In this document: positions 2,679 through 9,277 of the stretch, piece by piece | Layout of the letters: the number at the start of each line of letters is the position of its first letter | How positions within the stretch are numbered: position 1 is the first letter of the stretch | Assembly (NCBI GenBank): GCA_027577415.1 | Contig: JANBQS010000617.1 | Coordinates: forward strand, 1 to 14,543 | DNA: 14,543 nt | Origin: Coemansia sp. RSA 922 | Lineage: Eukaryota; Kickxellomycota; Kickxellomycetes; Kickxellales; Kickxellaceae | Direction: 5' to 3' | The notes under the pieces: model-generated | Seen by the model: only the letters and a program-made list of their open reading frames with translations | Database searches by the model: none | Told to the model about the DNA's origin: nothing | Program-made: the position numbers and the translations under genes

Positions 2679-3839
2679 ATGCCACGTCTACCTGTCACGC
2701 TAGTGGAGGCCAGCTCCAAGGGAGCAGTTGCTTTTATCTTTGGCGCCAATTTCCACGTTACCGACAGCGCTGGCAAGGTTATTGCATCGACCATCGCCAA
2801 TAGACAAAACGACCAAGTAGCAAAGATTGAGAGTCCCAGCAAGGGCAACATCCGAGCCGGGGCATTTAGCCGGGACGGTTCTCTGTTTGCCATATGTACT
2901 GTGGACAAGGGACTGTACGTCTACGAGACCGAGAACTGGAAGACGGTTCGCAGCCTAGACAGCGAAAAGCGCTGTAACGCACTGGCCATAGACCCTAGTG
3001 GCGACGTTTTGGTAACTGCTGACAAATTTGGTGACGCGTATTGGGTGGGTATATTCCCGGATACTGCAGAAAAGCCCCACATCCTGCTAGGACATGTGTC
3101 TAACCTTTGCGCGATTGATTTTTCGTTTAACGAGCCGCCCTATGTGTTGACCTGCGATCGCGATGAAAAGCTGCGTGTTAGCAGGTTTCCGAATGCCTAC
3201 AACATTCAGTCGTTTGGCTTGGGTCATACCGAGTTTATCACCTCTGTGGCTCCCGCACGCTTTGCCATAGACAATGCTGTCACTGCTTCGGGTGATGGCA
3301 CCCTGAGGCTTTGGAATATGCATACTGGCGAGCTGCTACAGACCGTGGAGATGAGCAAGTATTTGGCCAAATACTATGAGAGCGGTGCAGCGGTGTGCGG
3401 TGAAAATACCTATGAAGATAGGACTGCCGCCAACCAGCGGTATGGTATTCTCCGTGTTCGCGCTGTCGATGCGATAGAGTCGTTTGTTGCTGTCGTTGAG
3501 AGAATCCCTGCGGTCTTGGTGTTCCCGTTCCGTCAGGGCAAACTTGGCGAGCCACAGGTTATTGATATTGCCCAGCCACCTACCGATGTCGGTGTTCTGG
3601 GAGACCGTCTAGTTGTCTCATACACACCAAAGGCCAGTGGTGAGCTCGTTGCTGTGCTAAAATATGACGGAAACCAGTACGTGGCTGACGATGAATTGAC
3701 TACCGCCTTGTCTTTGAACGTCACGACTATGGAGACCGAAACAGTGCCAAAGATTGCATCGATCTTTGTTTGGGGAAACAAGATGTACTTGGAACGGCCC
3801 AAAGGCGAAGAAGGCGACGAGCATGACGAGCAAGAGTAA
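2679..3839 (+). CDS. TRM82: tRNA (guanine-N7-)-methyltransferase non-catalytic WD40 subunit (Trm82/WDR4)
   Basis: This 386-residue single-exon beta-propeller protein is the structural partner of the methyltransferase Trm8/METTL1, which makes m7G at position 46 of many tRNAs. The family-specific stretch is in the middle: LGH at 137-139, then DRDEKLRVSRFPNAYNIQSF (160-179) and LGHTEF (181-186). The matching region of human WDR4 reads very similarly. A clear WD repeat, SGDGTLRLWNMHTGELL, starts at 204. The N-terminal ADKFGDAYW segment is also typical of the family. The protein is somewhat shorter than yeast Trm82 (444) and close to human WDR4 (412); the C-terminus ends in an acidic tail. The start follows a T-run, so its context is weak, but no other in-frame ATG lies upstream. 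Only 206 bp separate it from the acyl-CoA synthetase stop. Trm8 itself is not in the window. Confidence 0.93.
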   Translation: MPRLPVTLVEASSKGAVAFIFGANFHVTDSAGKVIASTIANRQNDQVAKIESPSKGNIRAGAFSRDGSLFAICTVDKGLYVYETENWKTVRSLDSEKRCNALAIDPSGDVLVTADKFGDAYWVGIFPDTAEKPHILLGHVSNLCAIDFSFNEPPYVLTCDRDEKLRVSRFPNAYNIQSFGLGHTEFITSVAPARFAIDNAVTASGDGTLRLWNMHTGELLQTVEMSKYLAKYYESGAAVCGENTYEDRTAANQRYGILRVRAVDAIESFVAVVERIPAVLVFPFRQGKLGEPQVIDIAQPPTDVGVLGDRLVVSYTPKASGELVAVLKYDGNQYVADDELTTALSLNVTTMETETVPKIASIFVWGNKMYLERPKGEEGDEHDEQE

Positions 3840-3879
3840 ACTCTACCTTTATGTGATAAATGCAATTACCAAGGCAACA

Positions 3880-3885
3880 AATAAA
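3880..3885 (+). terminator. Poly(A) signal of TRM82
   Basis: AATAAA lies 41 nt after the TRM82 stop codon on the same strand. It faces the poly(A) signal of the minus-strand micro-gene at 3969-3974, so the two 3' ends converge within about 90 bp. Confidence 0.6.
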
Positions 3886-3968
3886 ATTATAGTGATTGCG
3901 TTAAACGTTGATGACATATCCCGAGCACACACTTTGTTAAATGAGAATTCTAAATGTTTAAAGCATTA

Positions 3969-3974
3969 TTTATT
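3969..3974 (-). terminator. Poly(A) signal of the secreted micropeptide gene
   Basis: The plus strand reads TTTATT, giving AATAAA on the minus strand 35 nt after the stop codon of the 29-codon gene at 4009-4098. This spacing limits the transcript to roughly 190 nt and leaves little room for a further exon. Confidence 0.5.
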
Positions 3975-4008
3975 TGTTGATTAATGGTTAACAGGTGGAG
4001 GGGAGAGT

Positions 4009-4098
4009 CTAGGGCCAGGGTCCGAGCCAGACGACCTGGGCGTTGGCAGTTGCGGCGGCGACAACGACGATGGCAAGGAGGGTAGCGTAGGCGTTCAT
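4009..4098 (-). CDS. Putative secreted micropeptide: 20-residue signal sequence plus 9-residue peptide
   Basis: This 29-codon reading frame was found by reading the minus strand. Residues 1-20 form a textbook signal peptide: a short polar start (MNAYAT), a hydrophobic core of Leu, Ile, Val and Ala, then ANA at 18-20, an ideal A-x-A cleavage site. The predicted mature peptide is QVVWLGPWP, with two Trp, two Pro and an N-terminal Gln that could cyclise. Support beyond the frame: a TATA box at 4168-4175, a CA-rich leader, a good ATG context (A at -3), 23 of 29 codons ending in G or C (19 in C) inside AT-rich flanks, and an AATAAA 35 nt past the stop. No plausible splice donor (GTAAG type) is present, so a first exon of a larger protein is less likely. 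Function is unknown: a signalling, defence or pheromone-like peptide is conceivable, and a decayed secreted-protein gene is the main alternative. Confidence 0.6.
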   Translation of the reverse strand: MNAYATLLAIVVVAAATANAQVVWLGPWP

Positions 4099-4659
4099 GG
4101 TTAGAGAATTGTTAGTTGGTTTGTTGATAATGTTTTGTTGGGAGGGTGAGACGTGGACACATCCTCCTTTATATACTCATTTGTCGTGCGATCATTACAC
4201 TCGCTTCTTTATTAGTACGCATGTATTCTGAAACATACGCACAAACATACAATAGAAATTCACGGTATTATCGGCAATTAAATGAAATATCTCTGCAATT
4301 GCACTATTACGTAGGTCATGATATTGTCATCAATAGCTGTATTTTCAAATCATCGGCAAGTGGCAATTGTACCAAAATGAAAGCTGATACAACATGTCCA
4401 CATGGTGCAAATACGCTGAAAGTGTGTCCTATTGTGTGAATTGGCACACACACTCTGGCTCATTTGAATGCCTGCCTATTCTACAAAGCGGATAGATTAC
4501 AATTGTAGCAACATCGAAACAGGTATAACTGGATTTAACTGGACAGTGGAGCAATCGAGATGTAACGGTTTAATTTCAATATTTTGCAATATTACACGGA
4601 ATCTAGGTGTATTTATCAAAAATAATCCAAGTAGCAAGTTTCTTTTTGTATTTTTCATT
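4099..4659. other. AT-rich intergenic region: micropeptide promoter and 3' flank of the kinase gene
   Basis: No protein gene is supported here. Reading frames across it are AT-rich and have no family features. The left part holds the leader and TATA box of the minus-strand micropeptide gene. Further right are three CAATTG hexamers (4296-4301, 4364-4369, 4500-4505), two of them inside perfect 10-bp palindromes (4294-4303 and 4498-4507). There is also a TGTGTG-N6-CACACA inverted repeat at 4433-4450. The right end is the 3' flank of the kinase gene; no clean AATAAA was found for it. Confidence 0.55.
4168..4175 (-). promoter_or_regulatory. TATA box of the secreted micropeptide gene
   Basis: The minus strand reads TATATAAA, followed by G. 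It is 77 bp upstream of the micropeptide ATG (4096-4098). Initiation about 30 bp downstream would leave a leader of roughly 45 nt that is rich in C and A and looks unstructured, like leaders of strongly expressed fungal genes. Confidence 0.55.
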
Positions 4660-6667
4660 TTACGCGATATAGCGGCGCTTAAGCAAAGTGGCCTCTCCCA
4701 TGTTGAGAGAAAACAGCCCAGCGTTATTGCCAGACTGAATACCGCCATTTTGCTTGTTGCGAGCATTGCGGTTCTTCTTCGAGGGCAGGTCCAAGACTCG
4801 CGAGATAAAGCTCAGATCCGCATCAGCAGCATGCACATCGACAGGGTCACCCTGAGTGCCCTGCCAGCAGTGACGCGCCTGGATAGGAGTAGCAACAGCC
4901 TGGATGTTGACCCAGCCGTTAGCCAAGTTCTGAGTGCGCGGAGTTTGTGGCTCACGAACACGCGAGCGGCCCAAAAAGTCGGCATGCTGAGGGCCAGGGC
5001 TCTTGACGCCGTGCTGGCCAAAGGCAGCATCCCACGCCGGCGTGCTCGCATAGCGTAGATGTGCTTGCTCGTCGTCGCCCAGACGGCGCATGGCATACGC
5101 CAAGTCGTACGCGTTCTTCATCGTGTTGCGCGGCGAGAACTGAGCCTGGTCGGCGGCCTGCGCAGTGCTAATAAGCGGCTGGCGGAGTGTCAAGTGAGTC
5201 ATGCGATTAACGGTGCGACGCTTGTTGACCGATGAGCGGGCAGCGGCAGCAACAGCAGCGCTGTCGTACATCTCGTTCAAACCATCGACAATCCACGGGT
5301 GGCGCATAAAGTCCTGGATCGTGTAGCGGCGAGCCGGGTTCAGCTCCAGCAGCATGCTGACCAAGTGCTTGACCTGCGGGTTGACGTCATCCCACCACGG
5401 CGACAGGAACTCGTACTGCCCCAAAGCGACCTTGCGAGTCAAAACCTTGACGTCCTCGTCATAAAAGGGCGGAAACCCGCAGACCATGGCGTAAAGCATG
5501 CAGCCCAAGCCCCACATGTCAACAGCCTTTGTGTAGAGCTCGTCACGCACGACCTCAGGCGCAGCATAGCCAGCAGTACCACAAGGTGTGTGCGTGGACT
5601 GGTTCCAGACGACCTTGCTGAGGCCAAAGTCAATGAGCTTTACGCGGCCAATACCGCCACCGCCAACGCCAGGCACAAAAATCCCTTCCTCCATCTTCTC
5701 GCTAGTGTCGCCCTGGCGCTGCTTTTCCTTGGCTCCCGAAGACACTACTGGGATGGGCTCAAAGACAACGTTTTCGAGCTTGAGATCGCGCTGCACAATG
5801 CCGTTGGCATGCAGGTACTGTACGGCCTCTGCAACTTGAATTATGACATGACGTGTCAGCCGCTCGCCCAAGTACGTCAGCTGTAGTACGCGGTCAAACA
5901 GCTCGCCGCCCTCGGCAAATTCCATGACCAGGTAGTAATAGTCGCGCGACTCGCAAAATCCAATAAGCTTGATAATGCGGGGGTGGCGCAGGCTCTCCAT
6001 GATGGCGACTTCCTTGTGGATGTTGGCTATCTGGACTGGCGTCAAACCTGACTTGCAAATGGCCTTGATGGCCACCTCCTCACTCGTAGCATCTTGGCGC
6101 GCGCGGTAGACCTTGCTGAATGCGCCTCTAAAGACATGTAAAAAAAAAAAGTGTGGAGGCAATTAGAGCAAGCTAGACAATGCAAAGTGAGCATGCAAAA
6201 CAAAGGGCAGAAAAGCACTGTCACATGGCGAGGCAGGGGCGCTTCAGGGAGCACGCGAACAATGTAATATCCCAAGTGAGAAGGACTACCTACTCTCCTA
6301 TCCTGCTTATGACCGTGTATCCCTCAATCGACGGGAATCCGTTACCCTCAGCGTCAGCACCGTGTGTAACACCAGCGTTGGAGTTCCTGCGGTTGTTTGA
6401 GCGGGTCTTGGCGGCCTGTTCCGCCGCGCTGTCGTCCTCGTCGCTGCTTTCCAGCATGTACAGCGTCTCCTTCAGACCGCTGATAGAGCGCCGGCGGCGA
6501 CCTCCGCCCGTAAGGCTGTTGGTCGTGCCAAACGTTTTGCTGCGAATGTCCATGTCCTCTATCTCAACCGCCGCCATTTGCTGAGCCCCACGGCGGCCGG
6601 TCGCGCGGTAGGTGGTGGCATTGGCCTTGGAGGAATCGCCACTTGATCTGTTGCTAAAGATGCCCAT
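4660..6667 (-). CDS. Rck2/Srk1-like MAPK-activated (CAMK group) protein kinase, QRD variant
   Basis: There are two exons: 6667-6294 and 6127-4660, joined in phase 2 across a 166-nt intron, giving 613 residues. The join restores the glycine loop RIGEGAFSKVY (121-132). Other kinase landmarks are VAIK with Lys146, alpha-C Glu164, catalytic-loop Asp239, DFG at 291-293 and APE at 314-316. Between the catalytic loop and DFG sits a long insert with PGVGGGGIGRVK (277-288), a feature of fungal Rck2/Srk1 kinases, which act below the Hog1/Sty1 stress MAPK on translation and cell-cycle targets. Thr305-Pro306 in the activation loop is the expected MAPK site, and the extreme C-terminus carries LLKRR (606-610), like the MAPK docking motif of mammalian MAPKAP kinases. 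The odd feature is Gln237 where HRD kinases have His (codon CAG at 5791-5793). The N-terminal 115 residues are Ser-, Arg- and acid-rich and look disordered. Confidence 0.9.
6128..6293 (-). other. Intron of the kinase gene
   Basis: The donor GTAGGT begins at 6293 and the acceptor TTTAG ends at 6128, preceded by a run of T residues. A CTCTAAT branch-point candidate lies about 36 nt from the acceptor (6162-6168). Removal gives GA + A = Glu125 and an unbroken glycine loop, which fixes the boundaries. Confidence 0.9.
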
Positions 6668-7273: not shown

Positions 7274-9277
7274 TCAGGTCGGCGGCTCATGCGCATCGCT
7301 GAATGTAAAATACGTAGAGATATCGCCCATGTTTGCCAGTCCGCTGCTAGCGCTGCCATTGCTCATAGGCGCACCATAGGCGATGTTTTGTGCTTGGTTC
7401 CTGTCAACATCGCCCACTGGCTGCAGCGCAGTGGCTAAATGGGGACCAATCGTCGGTGGACCGTCATTATTTCCGATGTCCTCTAGCGATTCCGACATTT
7501 GCTTGTGCACCGTCGCACCGCCAAGATTATTGGCTTGCTGCGGTGTCAGCAGATGCGAGGGCAGCGACGAAGTGGGCTTGACTTGTAGACGGGTCTTTAG
7601 TGACATGAGAATGCTCTCGTTTGCAAGAGCATTGTAGCCGCTGTCGCGCGCATTGGTTCCGCTTATATCGGCCGGTGTTGGCGCCACTGGCTCCAGATGC
7701 ATGCTCTGACTGTTATTGGCACTGTTCGTATAGCCTTCGGGGCCGTTGGACAGAGGCGGCGGTCGTGCCGACTTTGGGCGCTCGGCTTGTAAGAAAGACT
7801 CAAACGATTGCATCGACGACTCCACAGCCGATGGCGCAGTAGCTGTCGATGTGGCAAACGGATTCAGTCCACTGAGCGAGTTGGGCGCATCAAACTTCGT
7901 CGTAGTCTCTGCTACCCCATCGCCCATTGGAGTCACTCGACCGCCAGGGGCTCCCATCGGCGTAGCTGGATAGGGCTGGTAGCGGTTAGAAGGCAGAACT
8001 TGCAAAGACGCCCTTCGCAGCGCAAACGCGCCATGGCCATGTGGCATCGGGTGGTTTGCGCCCATTTCGCTAATGCTCGAGGTAACGCTCATCAAAAACG
8101 GATTGATTGTCGCTAGCTCTGACTGCCGTATTCCTGGCGATGTAAAGCTCAGCGGCGGCTGCGTGGGTAGCTGGGGCTGCAAGGGCGCGGCAAAGGCGGG
8201 GCCGTTGCCGCCGGACATATGCATAGGCATAGCGCCAAGGGCTTCAAGTTGGCCGTCTCTGGGCAGCGAGTATCGGTGCATAGGTGGTGGCTTACCCGCA
8301 TTATTCATAGTAGAGTCCAGCACCGCCAAATCCACAGTCCAATATGCGCCCTTGCCCGGCTCGTTGGCGGGTCGCGGTATCCTGACAAATGTCTTATTCA
8401 GCGAGAGGTTGTGACGTATAGAGTTCTTCCACCCGGATCCAGCAGATTTAAAGTACGGGTAGTTATCCATGGCCCAGTTGTAAATCTCGTTCAGCGTCAT
8501 TTGCTTTCGTGGGTGGTGGAGAAGGGCGTAGGTAATCAGTGTCGCATAAGAGTATGGCGGCTTGCCAGCGGTGTGCGTTTTGAGCTGCGCCGCACCACTC
8601 AAGAGCAAAGCAATGTCGGGTGGGCCAGGCGGATTGACCCCTGTTGCTGACGACGATTTCGTAGATGCCTGCGACGGCGAGTTCATTGACAGAGAGGTGT
8701 TTGTCGATCCAGCGTGGCTAAGACCGGCGGGAGTGGTAGTGGCCGGCATATTCCCGTTCTGATGCAAGCCAGAGGACATGTGAGGAAAGGCGGCGTCAAT
8801 GTCAAATTCGCTTTGGCGCTGCTGAAGGGGCATAGACGATATCGAGGCGTTCTGGCTGGGCACCATACCGAATATCTCGTTGCGAAACGGCAGGTGGGGC
8901 GGTCGATGCTGGAATTGCAGGCCGGGCGGCTGCGTCGGTGGTGGTATCTGCGGCAACATGGAAATGTCAAAGGACTGCCGATGCAGAACCCTATGCTGCT
9001 GTTGCTGAAGCTGCTGCAGGTGGTGCGTGTGCAGCGATGCACTCAGCTGCTGGATGGACGCAGATGATGGCATTGCGGGCTGAGGGACCACTGCACTCGC
9101 TTGCGCCCTCTGCTGAGCATCTGCTGGAGGCACTGAGAACGGATTGATGAACCCGCCTGGAAGCACCTCTGGGTACACCGCCTTCTCATCTAGCGGGTAC
9201 GACGGTCTTCCACCGTCGCGATCCATCGGGAAGAGCGAGATAAATGGGACTTTCTGCTGCGCTCTCGCCGGAACCAT
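7274..9277 (-). CDS. Forkhead (winged-helix) transcription factor
   Basis: This 667-residue single-exon protein has one forkhead DNA-binding domain in its centre, about residues 239-316. It begins KPPYSYATLI (239-248), includes recognition helix WKNSIRHNLSLNKTF (283-297) with the base-contacting Asn285 and His289, and ends in PGKGAYWTVD (307-316). The domain is canonical and should bind the GTAAACA-type core. The rest is low-complexity: a His/Gln-rich run (84-100), Pro-rich stretches, and a long Ser/Pro/Asn-rich C-terminal half that probably serves transactivation or regulation. There is no FHA domain, so it is not a direct Fkh1/Fkh2 match and is nearer the FHA-less Hcm1/Sep1/Mei4-like group, though I cannot assign an orthologue. 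The start is well supported: an in-frame TGA lies two codons upstream of the ATG. It shares a 1.17 kb divergent intergenic region with RanBP1. Confidence 0.93.
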   Translation of the reverse strand: MVPARAQQKVPFISLFPMDRDGGRPSYPLDEKAVYPEVLPGGFINPFSVPPADAQQRAQASAVVPQPAMPSSASIQQLSASLHTHHLQQLQQQQHRVLHRQSFDISMLPQIPPPTQPPGLQFQHRPPHLPFRNEIFGMVPSQNASISSMPLQQRQSEFDIDAAFPHMSSGLHQNGNMPATTTPAGLSHAGSTNTSLSMNSPSQASTKSSSATGVNPPGPPDIALLLSGAAQLKTHTAGKPPYSYATLITYALLHHPRKQMTLNEIYNWAMDNYPYFKSAGSGWKNSIRHNLSLNKTFVRIPRPANEPGKGAYWTVDLAVLDSTMNNAGKPPPMHRYSLPRDGQLEALGAMPMHMSGGNGPAFAAPLQPQLPTQPPLSFTSPGIRQSELATINPFLMSVTSSISEMGANHPMPHGHGAFALRRASLQVLPSNRYQPYPATPMGAPGGRVTPMGDGVAETTTKFDAPNSLSGLNPFATSTATAPSAVESSMQSFESFLQAERPKSARPPPLSNGPEGYTNSANNSQSMHLEPVAPTPADISGTNARDSGYNALANESILMSLKTRLQVKPTSSLPSHLLTPQQANNLGGATVHKQMSESLEDIGNNDGPPTIGPHLATALQPVGDVDRNQAQNIAYGAPMSNGSASSGLANMGDISTYFTFSDAHEPPT

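Follow-up and report, generated by a model that had tools for sequence, protein, structure and literature searches.

The window, which is the whole 14,543-nucleotide stretch of Coemansia sp. RSA 922 DNA that was analysed, contains a Trm82/WDR4 gene at positions 2679-3839, whose product shares 98% identity with a Coemansia sp. S2 protein; its next best hits likewise come from Coemansia. The surrounding genes are ordinary, comprising an AMP-binding (acyl-CoA synthetase-like) gene at 403-2472, a protein kinase gene at 4660-6162, and a forkhead transcription factor gene at 7274-9277. Adjoining the Trm82/WDR4 gene is a micro-gene of 29 codons plus a TAG stop, located on the minus strand at 4009-4098 and recognised from its translation and from an alignment of 14 copies. 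The frame translates as MNAYATLLAIVVVAAATANAQVVWLGPWP before reaching the TAG codon. As the original prediction had pointed out, 19 of the 29 codons of this copy end in C, and the flanks are AT-rich, their GC content, taken in 500-base steps between 3751 and 4750, being 0.38-0.44, compared with about 0.48-0.61 over the adjoining genes. The number of C-ending codons varies from 10 to 19 of 29 across the 14 copies.

A Family of Fourteen Copies

The window's own assembly (20.4 Mb in 960 contigs) was searched with the 29-residue sequence. This search returned 14 matches on 13 contigs, the window copy included, which were 83-100% identical, full length, and free of internal stops. Every copy consists of 29 codons and a stop, which is TAG in 13 cases and TAA in one. 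A degenerate DNA pattern for WLGPWP matched those 14 places only, with no match for its backwards control. The occurrence of WLGPWP within a longer protein was considered and rejected, there being none outside the 14 as judged by the DNA pattern, which would miss a codon interrupted by an intron.

A degenerate pattern for the leader found the same 14 places when no mismatch was permitted. With up to two mismatches it found the 14 exact places and 16 others, 30 in total, against 29 for the reversed control. The 16 extra loci (L050-L065) were rejected as divergent family members, their translations looking unrelated. A core-plus-stop pattern with up to two mismatches matched the 14 exact places plus two, against one for the reversed control. 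We also observed that a 17-base core pattern with up to three mismatches matched 281 places (for example, G000:C82:39015-39031) against 122 in the reversed control. This excess neither shows nor excludes distant cores, and the core-plus-stop pattern speaks against there being many. There were no matches to viral or prokaryote contigs in the pattern scans. The protein database yielded no homologue among sequences of 22-70 and 36-115 aa (candidates sharing three 5-residue words), a null result that says little because genes so short are seldom annotated. Genes of 29 codons are commonly missed by gene annotation, and a family of such genes can therefore stay invisible.

Flanks of 2-8 kb at 87-95% identity are common to the copies on contigs C170 and C293, to those on C435, C40, C874, and C209, to those on C88 and C3, and to those on C20, C44, and C285 (copy C285a). 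The window copy (C617), the C11 copy, and the second C285 copy (C285b) share with other copies only pieces that are each at most about 0.35 kb long. With four flank-sharing groups and three lone copies, the 14 genes thus lie in seven flank contexts, between which only the frame, the leader, and pieces of the promoter can be aligned. The long-flank groups may have arisen by segmental duplication or may represent separated haplotypes, and pairs of copies are consequently not independent of each other. For the acyl-CoA synthetase gene, the genome contains a single match and, in addition, a 101-base piece at 72%. The Trm82 gene of the window also has one match, whereas RPL3 occurs twice with equal score, on contigs C188 and C954 (L067 and L068), which indicates partial duplication or partial phasing of the assembly. 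In L067, an antisense frame of 464 aa is open against RPL3.

The C435/C40 and C88/C3 contexts have in common a stretch of 0.5-0.6 kb at 77-78% identity, some kilobases upstream (L013:5-600 and L017:5869-6462). This stretch overlaps a DUF4246 gene in L017 and is separate from the micro-gene unit. A mobile element was rejected as an explanation of the family, as the neighbours differ and the flanks are not shared between contexts.

Conservation of the Frame

Nei-Gojobori analysis of the 91 pairs of copies gave means of 0.258 for pS, 0.051 for pN, and 0.167 for dN/dS. The dN/dS ratio was 0.172 for the part encoding the predicted signal peptide and 0.164 for the core. Although pN is lower in the core than in the signal part (0.026 versus 0.063), so is pS (0.146 versus 0.300); the ratio is therefore the same, and no stronger protein-level constraint on the core is evident. 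By Fitch parsimony, the 48 changes fall 8, 7, and 33 on codon positions 1, 2, and 3 (p = 5.7e-7 against one third), an exact p-value that is untrustworthy because the pairs are non-independent and the tree was built from the leader and coding part, that is from the same bases as were counted, while the direction is plain. When substitutions were simulated at random, a mean of 13.2 of the 48 were synonymous, and none of the 3000 runs exceeded 25. Averaged over pairs of copies, identity falls from 89% in the coding part to 60% over the 100 nt upstream and 40% over the 100 nt downstream.

The claim that this locus is a micro-gene is thus borne out by 14 conserved paralogous copies with mainly synonymous change and a common promoter and stop. 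Conservation of the frame, checked here among the paralogues of one assembly, held in all 14. We conclude from these sequence patterns that the 29-codon frames almost certainly constitute a real coding family. Splicing of the frame to a longer downstream protein, which had been raised as a counter-explanation, is contradicted by the stop in 14 of 14 copies; moreover, the downstream DNA cannot be aligned beyond the 3' region between copies of different flank contexts.

An element of another kind, whether a mobile element, an RNA gene, or a duplicated promoter, might carry the open frame incidentally. The dispersed copies do have in common a unit of ~0.4 kb with pieces of similarity, and the register-aligned antisense frame is also stop-free in 14 of 14 copies. 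However, change at the third position of the sense frame favours the sense strand over the open antisense frame. Together with the dN/dS of 0.17, the conservation of the stop, and the codon bias described below, this third-position bias largely contradicts a non-coding or repeat element, and Rfam has no match in window positions 3800-4700. We regard such an element as extremely improbable.

Promoter, Leader, and 3' End

A TATA box, TATATAAA, is found at 4168-4175 on the minus strand, with TATAAA beginning 75 nt before the ATG. All 14 copies have a counterpart that starts 72-82 nt before the ATG and reads TATAAA (12 copies) or TATTTAA (two copies). The probable 5' leader, read from the sequence with a putative transcript start, occupies 4099-4145 on the minus strand and is CA-rich and ATG-free. 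Every one of the 14 copies has an A at position -3. Eleven of the 14 have an ATG between the TATA box and the start codon, at a distance of 51-71 nt from the start codon, and transcription is assumed to start downstream of this ATG. A 97-aa frame at 4146-4439 on the plus strand runs antisense over the promoter and TATA box of the micro-gene, probably by chance.

Pattern searches of the copies and of the genome revealed a distal promoter module, TTGTAGAATA ... AATTCACACAAT, at 4431-4486 on the minus strand. All 14 copies carry the sequence TTGTA(G/A)AATA, with at most one mismatch, 312-391 nt upstream of their ATG. The exact 10-mer TTGTAGAATA occurs in six of the seven contexts with all 14 copies counted; in shuffles, which used a single copy for each context, the maximum was two contexts, so the two figures are not strictly comparable. 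The genome contains 12 matches to the composite pattern TTGTARAATA-N(9-39)-AATTNNNACAAT, each of them 326-391 nt upstream of a family member (reversed control, 0); the pattern was derived from these copies, and its informative part is that nothing else in 20 Mb matches. The C11 and C44 copies escape the strict composite, and both carry the first element. The best reading of these patterns is that the module is private to the family and that the copies are co-regulated. A private module would imply a dedicated regulator, perhaps with a positive feedback loop.

Comparison of the copies also suggests AAATA, at 3971-3975 on the minus strand, as a possible 3'-end signal. AAATA follows the stop by 27-38 nt in 12 of 14 copies, a number that shuffles of 100 nt also reached for some 5-mer. 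The longer AAATACA is found in 10 of 14 copies, related copies being treated separately in this count, against a shuffle maximum of five for a 7-mer; it is absent from the window copy.

Codon Use

Across the copies, 22-25 of the 26 degenerate codons end in a pyrimidine, as compared with simulated means of 15.4-16.5 based on four window genes. With RPL3 as the reference, which as one gene is a thin yardstick, and the four window genes as the background, the codon log-likelihood of the window copy is 7.9. The 11 pieces of RPL3 itself score 3.7-8.0, and 76 pieces of the four window genes average -5.1 and reach 5.4 at most. Thirteen of the 14 copies beat a codon simulation at 0.006 or better, and the C3 copy does so only at 0.05. 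Codon use resembling that of a ribosomal protein gene, taken with the TATA box, lends indirect support to the earlier suggestion that the gene is highly expressed.

Predicted Product

Codons 1-20 (MNAYATLLAIVVVAAATANA; 4039-4098, minus strand) are predicted to encode a signal peptide on the basis of a hydrophobic core, an A-x-A motif, and hydropathy. The hydrophobic core, residues 7-18, has a mean Kyte-Doolittle value of 2.75 in the window copy. The sequence A-N-A precedes Q in 13 of 14 copies and A-N-V (A20V) in the remaining one. The n-region has no basic residue, which counts against the signal-peptide explanation. Codons 21-29 (4012-4038, minus strand) would, from the 14-copy comparison, encode the mature nonapeptide, in which eight of the nine residues are invariant. 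Residue 2 is V or A, so the predicted peptide is QVVWLGPWP in seven copies and QAVWLGPWP in seven. The original prediction had described a complete signal peptide followed by a nonapeptide; the hydrophobic core and the ANA/Q site are consistent with this description, the cleavage itself being a prediction from sequence.

No further residue follows the nonapeptide, and the predicted signal peptide runs directly into the core, with no visible pro segment. Because none of the 14 peptides contains K or R, they cannot have a Kex2 site. The peptide has no match in Pfam or among PDB sequences. On present evidence the product is very probably a secreted nonapeptide, and conversion of its N-terminal Gln to pyroglutamate is chemically likely. 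The computed [M+H]+ values of the two core forms are 1081.583 and 1053.552, with 1064.556 and 1036.525 for the pyroglutamyl forms and 1063.572 and 1035.541 for the cyclic forms.

If the signal-like segment were to remain uncut, it could serve as an anchor, leaving nine residues exposed in the lumen or outside the cell to regulate a partner in the membrane. The mean hydropathy of 2.06 over the 19-residue window from residue 7 (window copy) would suit a membrane micro-protein of this type. However, the A-N-A/Q sequence kept in 13 of 14 copies suits signal peptidase, and the segment has many Ala residues and would be a short anchor. A membrane role is accordingly unlikely in our view, and a secreted nonapeptide remains the preferred product.

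Neighboring Genes and Possible Tailoring of the Core

Pfam was run on 18 of the 67 listed ORFs of 100 aa or more around the copies. Twelve of the 18 have ordinary domains (kinases, RasGEF, S49 peptidase, PPR, Arb2, FUSC, DUF4246, RING, forkhead, and others) and six have none; the neighbours hint at no function for the micro-gene. In four copies (L013, L014, L015, and L016) a peptidase family S49 gene lies about 500 nt upstream of the micro-gene, the assignment coming from Pfam on L013:1228-3492 only and the other three being its duplicates by DNA. Family S49 is that of the bacterial signal peptide peptidase SppA. The four copies have a common flank, and so this neighbour may mean nothing.

The nonapeptide might alternatively be the core of a ribosomal peptide precursor that is further tailored by cyclisation or some other modification. 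The fungal ribosomal cyclic peptide precursors of the MSDIN family and the dikaritins offer a comparison. The micro-gene is like them in its Pro at a core border and, in the MSDIN case, in its tiny precursor and in being one of a multigene family. The short, Pro-terminated core makes a head-to-tail cyclic form conceivable, and the six scanned ORFs that lack a Pfam domain fit in with this idea. The micro-gene differs in that its precursor begins with a predicted signal peptide and ends with the core, which is almost the same in all copies. In addition, there is no tailoring domain among the 18 scanned of the 67 neighbouring ORFs. We see only a slim chance that the core is tailored in this manner.

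Possible Function of the Nonapeptide

We propose the following mechanism. The TATA promoter of each gene and the common distal element would give strong, co-regulated transcription, and the 29-residue pre-peptide would enter the secretory route. Signal peptidase would cut after ANA and so directly free Q(V/A)VWLGPWP; neither a pro-region nor a dibasic site nor a repeat would be involved. Closure of the N-terminal Gln to pyroglutamate may follow. The uncharged, Trp/Pro-rich peptide would act as a diffusible signal between hyphae, either entering cells via an oligopeptide transporter or binding to a receptor at the surface. Taken as a whole, we somewhat favour a set of co-regulated, high-output genes for a nonapeptide that is freed by signal peptidase alone and is probably a diffusible, Qsp1-like signal.

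The closest comparison is with Qsp1 of Cryptococcus neoformans, which published accounts describe as an 11-mer that leaves the cell as a pro-peptide, is cleaved extracellularly by Pqp1, and acts inside cells after import by Opt1 (PMC7537855, PMC6571750, PMC5959073). Both are very short fungal peptides, uncharged and rich in Gly, Pro, and aromatic residues, secretion in the present case being predicted. Qsp1 works via an oligopeptide transporter, and a profile search of this genome found four OPT-family matches over the cut-off. OPT transporters import food peptides too, so their presence is not specific to signalling. In contrast to Qsp1, which is matured by the extracellular protease Pqp1, the nonapeptide would need signal peptidase alone; it is encoded by 14 gene copies and belongs to another phylum. 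Compared by eye, the 11-mer as given in PMC5959073 has nothing alignable with the nonapeptide. The suggested resemblance is in the way of working, and membership is not claimed.

The ascomycete alpha-type pheromones are described as peptides of 9-14 residues made from pre-pro precursors that contain repeats with Kex2 sites (PMC6265332, PMC3068285). The micro-gene product would follow a similar classical secretion route, and its predicted mature part of nine residues falls within the 9-14 given in PMC6265332. The micro-gene differs in having no pro region, repeat, or dibasic site, and so lacks the defining feature; its copies are separate genes rather than repeats in one precursor. Receptors of the Ste2/Ste3 type (PF02116, PF02076) gave no matches in this genome and likewise none in 14 control genomes. 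Kickxellomycotina may, at somewhat less than even odds, have a signal system that needs only signal peptidase to free the message from its minimal pre-peptide of 29 residues, with output raised through 14 dispersed co-regulated genes in place of repeats within one precursor.

The main rival to a signal is a nonapeptide secreted in bulk, with an antimicrobial, surface-active, coating, or self-assembling function, for example around spores or at the hyphal surface. The 14 copies, TATA promoters, and ribosomal-protein-like codons suggest dosage, and 14 strong copies fit bulk production at least as well as they fit a signal; the uncharged, hydrophobic, Trp/Pro-rich peptide would also be in keeping with it. 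However, the mature part has not diversified among the paralogues, unlike arms-race peptides. Most antimicrobial peptides are charged, whereas this one has no charge, and with only nine residues it would be small for a structural polymer. Copy number and codon bias thus favour mass production, and the near-invariant mature part together with the private promoter element favours a message read by a fixed partner. We place the signal first, as a possibility just short of evenly balanced, and the bulk product second, as a rather unlikely but serious one.

The sequence WLGPWP appears in no openly licensed PMC paper. By title and the start of the abstract, such a peptide is the subject of none of the openly licensed papers on Coemansia and secreted peptides, PMC10386755 and PMC10478498 among them, and among the matches listed from the same literature there was nothing closer. 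The nonapeptide is a candidate chemical signal for fungi for which we found none described in openly licensed PMC papers. Were it a signal, it would provide a handle on cell-cell communication in Kickxellomycotina. The idea is directly testable, the peptide being synthesisable and its masses known. The design of a signal peptide plus message also means that the mature sequence can be read from DNA, which would allow other early-diverging fungi to be mined for families of this kind. The search with the leader pattern also brought up, in L062 (contig C537 near 7898), a further small frame that looks secreted, MYSYVTLAVFALVSFAAAAPMPIP..., of 61 aa and unrelated to the family.
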